Shown here piece by piece: positions 7,583 through 35,954 of a DNA stretch of 64,000 nucleotides; positions within the stretch are counted from its first letter, which is position 1; each line of letters begins with the position of its first letter. The notes beneath the pieces were generated by a model. It was not told the origin of the DNA. It searched no databases and saw only the letters and a list, made by a program, of their open reading frames with translations. The translations under genes and the position numbers were made by a program. Source of the stretch: an uncultured Oscillibacter sp. (GTDB taxonomy: Bacteria; Bacillota; Clostridia; Oscillospirales; Oscillospiraceae); NCBI GenBank assembly GCA_947365245.1, contig CANAWG010000015.1:16708-80707 (forward strand), written 5' to 3'.

Positions 7583-7763
7583 TATAGTCGCCGCAGTTGA
7601 AAAGAAGCACACTTCTTTTCAATCCAGGGGCGCATATGCGCCCCTGGTGGCCGTGAAACGGCCCGGCGGCAGACTTCATAGACAAAACACAGCGCATAGA
7701 ATGCGCCGGCGGGCGGTGCCCGCCTTGAAAATCGGTTACCGATTTTCAAGTGTTTTGACTATA
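7583..7763 (+). repeat. Structured interspersed element, copy A (about 181 bp)
   Basis: Outer pairing TATAGTC/GACTATA; hairpins TTGAAAAGAAG..CTTCTTTTCAA, CCAGGGGCGCATATGCGCCCCTGG, GGCCGTGAAACGGCC, GCGCAT..ATGCGC, TTGAAAATCGGTTACCGATTTTCAA; homologous to 18312..18495 on the opposite strand. Confidence 0.75.
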
Positions 7764-13336: not shown

Positions 13337-13500
13337 TCCATATAACAGGAATATACGTCCATAGCAAGCGGACATTTGTTAGAAAACGCAATTGACAACC
13401 CTGGAAACATGTGGTAAGGTAATACCAAATTGAAGAACGGCATATAAATTCCCAGGGAGGCAGTCCCCGAGGGGGCCTGGCGGAACCGGGAACCACTGTG

Positions 13501-13581
13501 GCTCTGGAGAAGCCCGGCCGGCCCGGGTACCGAAGGTGTAAGGCGGAAAACCGCCGAATCTCTCAGGTAAAAGGACAGAGC
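13501..13581 (+). promoter_or_regulatory. Glycine riboswitch aptamer
   Basis: GGCTCTGGAGAAGCC...TACCGAAGGTGTAAG...GAATCTCTCAGGTAAAAGGACAGAGC; P1 GCTCTG/CAGAGC closes. Confidence 0.92.
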
Positions 13582-13624
13582 GGACATTTCCGCCGGCGGC
13601 TGTGTGTACCGGCGGAGATTTCCC

Positions 13625-17054: not shown

Positions 17055-17175
17055 GCGGCAGCGGGATGCGGGACACACACTGCGGTTTCCCTTTCGTCCG
17101 GAAAGCAACTCCCCGTCTTCCCGGCACTGCGGACGGCCCTCGCCGCCCGTTGACACGCGTGTCCCTACTCTGCCT
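17055..17175 (-). promoter_or_regulatory. Tetrahydrofolate (THF) riboswitch
   Basis: Minus strand GGCAGAGTAGGGACACGCGTGTCAACGG...GCAGTGCCGGGAAGACGGGGAGTTGC...GACGAAAGGGAAACCGCAGTGTGTGTCCCGCATCCCGCTGCC; TATAAT just upstream. Confidence 0.85.
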
Positions 17176-18311: not shown

Positions 18312-18495
18312 TATAGAGTCAGCGCACTTGAAAACCGGCAGGCGGCTTTCAAGGCGGACAGAGCGCGCCGGCACATAAAACGCGCTGTGCGCCTCAAACA
18401 AAGTCCGCCGCCTGGCCGTTTCACGGCCTGCCGCAGCGCTTCATGCTGCGGCGTTGAAAAGAGGCACTCGCTTCTTTTCAGCCGCGGTGGTTATA
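18312..18495 (-). repeat. Structured interspersed element, copy B (about 184 bp)
   Basis: Minus strand TGAAAAGAAG...CTCTTTTCA, GCCGCAGC..GCTGCGGC, GGCCGTGAAACGGCC, ...GTCCGCCTTGAAAGCCGCCTGCCGGTTTTCAAGTGCGCTGACTCTATA; homologous to copy A. Confidence 0.75.
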
Positions 18496-35635: not shown

Positions 35636-35890
35636 GAAAAACGCCCTGAGCCTTTCGGCTCAGGGCGAACAGATCTGTCCGCGGTACCACCTGAATTCGC
35701 GCTTTTCAAAAGCGCGCCCTCACGGGCGCTCTCACGCCCTCTCCCGGTAACGGGGGACACCGCCGCGGCCTACTGCTTTTTCAGCCGCGATGCTCCGGGA
35801 CGACTTCTCCGGCGGCCTCCCGGGAGCTTGCACCATCCGCTCCCTCTCTGCGCGTCCGCCTGCCGGGTACTGCTTCCCATCCTCGCAGTT
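35636..35890 (-). promoter_or_regulatory. T-box leader, probably valine-responsive
   Basis: Minus strand GATGGGAAGCAGTACCCGG...GCAGAGAGGGAGC..ATGGTGCAAGC...GAAGTCGTCC...AATTCAGGTGGTACCGCG then terminator CGCCCTGAGCCGAAAGGCTCAGGGCGTTTTT; TTGACA-17-TATACT upstream. Confidence 0.88.
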
Positions 35891-35954
35891 TCACACTTGC
35901 GCCAGTATAATATATCCGGCCCGAAATGTCAAGTGCTCCATCTCCCGCCGCCGC

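Follow-up and report, generated by a model that had tools for sequence, protein, structure and literature searches.

We found that two loci in the window (the whole 64,000-nucleotide stretch of uncultured Oscillibacter sp. DNA analysed here) are very probably copies of a non-autonomous, TA-inserting DNA mobile element, a bacterial MITE, which would be moved by a transposase acting in trans, would keep its fold at the DNA level and would be a fused dimer in its full-length form. Its copies are dispersed, non-coding and shorter than 200 bp, they are bounded by TA-ended inverted repeats, and the target is duplicated at five sites for which an empty counterpart exists. A copy inserts at a TA dinucleotide and leaves TA on either side. 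According to the mechanism we propose, the transposase that moves it would be supplied by another element, and the fold would be handled by the moving machinery or by replication as a cruciform or folded single strand. Alternatively, the fold may be kept because palindromes are repaired against themselves.

Two copies in the window and the architecture of the element

The sequence-only reading of this DNA had described two matching loci in opposite orientations, and both were confirmed. Copy A lies at 7583-7763 (+) and measures 181 bp (TATAGTC...GACTATA), and copy B lies at 18312-18495 (-) and measures 184 bp (TATAACC...CTCTATA). They align end to end with 70% identity as diverged copies of one element, and copy A used as a query against the whole genome returned copy B at E 1.5e-14. 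Both are much more stable than shuffled sequences, copy A with -103.5 kcal/mol (z -11.3, 200 shuffles) and copy B with -86.9 kcal/mol (z -3.4). The blocks said to be shared by the two copies were present on alignment, as was a second stem whose sequence is wholly swapped between A and B with its pairing kept; the core, given as 153 bp in both, has that length in A but measures 154 bp in B. An outer helix, TATAGTC/GACTATA, had also been proposed to close copy A. Its ends are present, but they pair with each other only as an alternative, and we rejected the helix as the main closing stem because the best fold joins both ends to the centre instead, the 5' TATAGTC arm to a central GACT and the 3' GACTATA arm to a central CATAG. 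The best fold consists of two separate junctions, not of one junction closed by the outermost ends. The features are as follows, with the basis for each in parentheses.

7583-7763 (+): copy A, a complete dimeric element of two tandem cloverleaf units (alignment, fold, empty site in the relative G006)
7583-7589 (+): 5' terminal inverted repeat TATAGTC, its first TA being the target duplication (empty site, insertion logo)
7586-7594 (+): junction stem 1, 5' arm, pairing with 7666-7675 (fold; the stem recurs with another sequence in each subfamily)
7596-7623 (+): hairpin 1, TTGAAAAGAAG...CTTCTTTTCAA (fold)
7624-7647 (+): hairpin 2, the stem wholly exchanged between A and B (alignment, fold)
7649-7663 (+): hairpin 3, GGCCGTGAAACGGCC (fold)
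7666-7675 (+): junction stem 1, 3' arm (fold)
7672-7681 (+): central GACTTCATAG, asymmetric, retained by most dimer copies, sets the element's orientation (copy alignments)
7683-7690 (+): junction stem 2, 5' arm CAAAACAC, with its partner GTGTTTTG at 7750-7757 (fold)
7692-7749 (+): hairpins 4 (7692-7706), 5 (7708-7724) and 6 (7725-7749, TTGAAAATCGG...CCGATTTTCAA) (fold)
7757-7763 (+): 3' terminal inverted repeat GACTATA, its last TA being the target duplication (empty site, insertion logo)
18312-18495 (-): copy B, a complete but decayed dimeric element in the final codons of a pyruvate:ferredoxin oxidoreductase (POR) gene (fold, empty site)
18478-18495 (-): last five codons and stop of the POR gene (Y N H R G *), read from copy B (comparison with the empty-site relative)

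Across 82 aligned insertions, the element is bounded by the inverted repeat TATARTCA...TGACTATA. Reading inward, TATARTC(A) is followed by one arm of a junction stem, three hairpins, the other arm and the centre, (G)A(C/T)TTCATAG; the second half then runs through junction stem 2, three more hairpins and its other arm to the 3' end. This layout amounts to two tandem four-way junctions with three hairpins each, flanking the conserved TTCATAG. The architecture is constant among subfamilies and the arm sequences differ, and even when no G.U pairing is allowed, all six subfamily consensus sequences fold as two four-way junctions, each with three hairpins, at -99 to -113 kcal/mol. Substitution rates were 5.0% in stems, 20.4% in hairpin loops and 8.9% elsewhere. 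In all subfamilies, the hairpin loops vary between copies four times as often as the stems, a variability that may reflect loop inversion or slippage.

Dimers measure 181-194 bp and short forms 57-116 bp. Two single-unit copies in the host genome (L013 and L016) have three hairpins in 86 bp, and a single-unit family of 116 bp is present in G483, a genome from another family of the same order. There are also one-hairpin forms of 57 bp and about 55 bp and a hairpin-less relic of about 33 bp, all still bounded by the same ends as the full element. The centre of the dimer can be likened to the fused inner ends of two units, in that its GACT pairs with the 5' AGTC and its CATAG with the 3' CTATA, and a centre reading GATTTCATAG goes with the 5' end TATAATC, a matched change. 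Since single units occur, the 180-bp form is best read as a fused dimer, and we infer that it derives from an older one-junction unit of 85-116 bp.

Distribution, insertion sites and neighbouring genes

The sequence-only reading had named a lack of further copies and of significant covariation as grounds for its rejection; searches of the host genome and its relatives instead found many copies. A covariance model built from 16 of them gave 18 matches in the host assembly (2.8 Mb in 53 contigs), and at least 15 copies, short forms included, are present in this genome, which excludes a two-copy coincidence. Of the 61 genomes sampled in the genus Oscillibacter, 18 gave matches to the covariance model, several of them with over 30 copies and some with over 40; the relative G006 holds 11 full or partial copies. 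Beyond the genus, the element occurs in two further genera of the family (in all, 3 of 106 sampled genera and 4 of 251 genomes), and single-unit relatives occur in one genome (G483) of another family of the order. The distribution is patchy, as that of a mobile element would be. In G062, 17 of 20 copies are identical across the first 94 bp, no two of the 20 share a flank, and contigs of the assembly break off within copies; identical copies at distinct sites point to recent movement or amplification. Phage and plasmid collections gave no match to the element. Among 50 pattern matches in viral contigs (IMG/VR), the element was present in three (L355, L362 and L363) and the rest were due to chance. 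These three contigs, which are classed as viral, carry the element's 5' end and first hairpin, and the hairpin is intact in L362 and L363.

We sought empty sites by searching with both flanks of a copy joined, a comparison that had been suggested along with the initial reading. Five orthologous empty sites were found, each with a single TA where the filled site reads TA[element]TA. The alignments are exact for L028 (against G059) and L032 (against G006) and clear for copy A (G006), copy B (G057) and L005. Copy B interrupts the POR gene and supplies its last codons and stop, the protein ending in ...ESYNHRG* here and in ...ESYNEA* in the empty-site relative. Its decayed 3' end, GACTC, still adjoins TATAACGA, which is the exact sequence of the empty site.

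The preferred target is T-K-Y-TA-Y-M-A, with a logo across the 82 insertions of T(0.59) K Y [TA] T(0.66) M A(0.55). Target positions ±2 and ±3 (T, K, M and A) are symmetric, but on the element strand a pyrimidine is preferred on either side of the TA, at -1 as well as at +1. When orientation was scored against the target, YTAY was counted 57 times and RTAR twice (p 6e-15), and a pyrimidine was present at -1 in 16 of 20 independent insertions in G062; by eye, YTAY was not apparent in the G483 single units. The large excess of YTAY over RTAR indicates that the orientation of the element is tied to its target, which would fit an asymmetric or single-strand mechanism.

As the end of the element reads TATARTC, we considered a rule of insertion into -10 boxes and did not adopt it, because a -35 at a spacing of 17 is present in only 5 of 82 insertions and divergent regions are not favoured. 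A few cases are nonetheless striking. At one host locus (L003, contig C46:390-570), the first bases of the element complete a strong promoter, TTGACA-17-TATAGT; the empty site, as reconstructed, has TTGACA-17-TATCGT, and this insertion thus swapped the -10 box for the element end. A second, unrelated repeat family of 150-215 bp, with a single hairpin and the ends GAACCTGTATTC...GAATACAGGTTC, is present in the same genomes (L002, L100, L304, L013, L089, L109, L136 and L250). The dimer directly abuts the end of this repeat at L002, L100 and L304, and the single-unit form does so at L013, which suggests preferred or nested insertion.

Neighbouring genes around the 82 insertions, assigned with a simple ORF and GC3 rule, were arranged ++ in 21 cases, -- in 16, convergent in 21 and divergent in 10, and no neighbour gene was conserved. 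The lack of a fixed orientation to genes argues against attenuators or leaders. Copy A opposes both of its neighbouring genes, which had already been counted against an attenuator, and across the whole set the orientations are random.

DNA or RNA pairing and the competing explanations

A stem selected as RNA would tolerate G.U better than A.C, whereas DNA pairing is disrupted by either. In 94 copies from six subfamilies, deviations from consensus Watson-Crick pairs in the stems comprised 111 G.T and 136 A.C cells (81 versus 89 distinct events). SRP RNA served as a control from the same genus, and 30 genes put through the same procedure gave 62 G.T and 19 A.C cells (15 versus 6 events); the contrast between element and control has p 8e-7 on cells but only p 0.06 on distinct events. 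Compensatory changes occur at 19 of 54 predicted pairs, and covariation includes the junction stems, in which 70-80 bases separate the two arms. This covariation is real but is by itself no proof of RNA. Since the stems change less than the loops and show no G.U excess, the pairing in resident copies is being preserved, though not for its use as RNA, and the fold appears to be retained in the DNA itself and not as a functional RNA. Because neutral decay also gives a 1:1 ratio, the test excludes selection on the resident copies as RNA but leaves room for an RNA function in a small number of source copies. Covariation alone is often taken as RNA evidence in genome scans, a habit that the G.T versus A.C test addresses; together with an in-genus RNA control, it offers a cheap separation of DNA-level from RNA-level hairpin families.

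A match to a known Rfam family had also been named as grounds against the first reading. Rfam gave no match at copy A, at the window loci or at five other subfamily loci (gathering scores; E up to 1). Elsewhere in the window, gathering-level matches mark a THF riboswitch at 17057-17174 (-), a T-box leader at 35658-35892 (-) and a glycine riboswitch at 13494-13588 (+). Between the two possibilities first offered, an RNA fold or a non-autonomous mobile element, the second is supported by the multiple copies, some nearly identical at new sites, and by the TA duplication at empty sites, and the first is not supported, given the missing G.U excess, unlike the control, and the random gene orientation.

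The TA duplication by itself favours an IS630-like DDE enzyme, for which TA repeated on both sides and nearly perfect inverted ends are typical. At IS630-type (PF13358), IS5-type (PF13586) and Y1 (PF01797) loci in up to 17 genomes, we found no paired TATARTCA ends. No such ends adjoin 30 PF13358 loci, and PF13358 had no match in the element-rich genomes G057, G062 and G001. Ends matching those of a resident IS630-family element, as a RUP-like derivative of IS630/Tc1-mariner would have, were not present. An IS200/IS605-type element would combine matching Y1 ends with no target duplication; here the Y1 loci lack matching end pairs, several element-rich genomes lack the Y1 transposase, and TA is duplicated. 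Long TATAGTCA...TGACTATA intervals of up to 4 kb, considered as an autonomous parent, were chance pairs or two adjacent copies, and a 3.3-kb candidate on contig C5 of G483 was rejected, as it contained ordinary MoxR/DUF58-like genes between weak end matches. Several findings count against a trans-mobilised MITE: no transposase with matching ends occurred among the families checked, the conserved end of 8 bp is short for a typical transposase site, and a symmetric cut-and-paste enzyme would not predict the asymmetry of YTAY over RTAR.

It is possible, if doubtful, that the element is a conventional DDE MITE whose palindromes are functionless by-products, with arms kept perfect by template-switch correction during replication. 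The TA duplication, the short inverted ends, the absence of an RNA-type mismatch bias, the highly variable hairpin loops and the relics that keep the same ends with one hairpin or none all agree with such an origin. However, two junctions with six hairpins are found again in every major subfamily and in three genera, a constancy that correction alone would not maintain, and covariation extends to the widely separated arms of the junction stems.

We consider it unlikely that a strand-specific enzyme (HUH/Y1-like or integrase-like) moves a folded single-stranded or cruciform form and recognises its shape rather than its sequence. Such an enzyme would account for arms that are replaced with pairing kept and no G.U bias, for a constant end of only about 8 bp, and for the target-tied orientation, G062 copies included. 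Against it stand the DDE marks of the insertions, the Y1 survey and the G483 single units with no visible YTAY. A specific form, in which the enzyme reads the folded double cloverleaf (single-stranded or cruciform) plus the end of about 8 bp and inserts directionally at YTAY, is speculative and rather improbable; if true, the element would be a structure-addressed transposon, its form conserved and its sequence free to drift.

A dispersed structured RNA (an ncRNA or RNA regulatory element), selected for its fold in a transcript and spread by duplication, is highly improbable. The strong fold (z -11 to -13), the compensatory changes, the stems more conserved than loops and the one copy behind a good promoter would suit it, but the G.U excess of the SRP RNA control is absent, gene-relative orientation is random, divergent promoter regions are not favoured, an upstream -35 is not generally enriched, insertion at TA is precise with empty sites, and Rfam has no match. 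A transcription attenuator or terminator of adjacent genes is hardly credible, since copy A opposes both neighbours and the 82 copies show random gene orientations and no conserved neighbour gene, even though slowing or arrest of RNA polymerase would be expected at stable GC-rich hairpins and the POR gene reads on into copy B.

Comparison with known systems

The usual view of bacterial MITEs is that they are left over from insertion sequences by deletion and that their hairpins either are accidental or act as RNA regulators. The two-junction fold of the Oscillibacter element is constant across subfamilies that share little arm sequence, which raises a testable question: is DNA secondary structure part of the transposition substrate? 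The bcr1 repeat of the Bacillus cereus group, which is also mobile and measures about 155 bp, is reported to have a conserved secondary structure; it differs from our element in host group and sequence, and the target duplication reported for it is not TA. We found no published description of the element in the openly accessible literature that was searched.

Bacterial MITEs as reviewed are shorter than 200 bp, with TA-bearing inverted ends, target duplication and stable secondary structure (PMC2229807). The TA-ended families Correia/NEMIS, ERIC and RUP share with our element the non-coding sequence, a length below 200 bp, TA inverted ends, target duplication and strong base pairing, and they too are mostly intergenic, sometimes end a neighbouring reading frame and usually have no known transposase (PMC2229807). 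In contrast to their one long stem-loop, the Oscillibacter element has two tandem three-hairpin four-way junctions, and it differs further in the wholesale exchange of arms between subfamilies, in its target-tied orientation, in being GC-rich and in its confinement here to Oscillospirales (PMC2229807). RUP, the repeat unit of pneumococcus, measures about 107 bp, close to the single-junction Oscillibacter forms, and also has TA insertion and short inverted ends; its ends match a resident IS630, and IS630-Spn1 has been proposed as its mover, whereas we found neither an IS630 nor any other transposase whose ends match those of our element (PMC2229807). The CIR elements of Caulobacter likewise have two structured arms and a linker with a conserved motif, but theirs are two long stem-loops with a GANTC site and without terminal inverted repeats, whereas ours are three-hairpin junction halves joined by a TTCATAG linker (PMC2229807). 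Altogether, the element represents a new family of MITEs whose architecture is unusual in conserving structure; the two junctions with exchanged arms and the target-tied orientation set it apart from the families described in PMC2229807.
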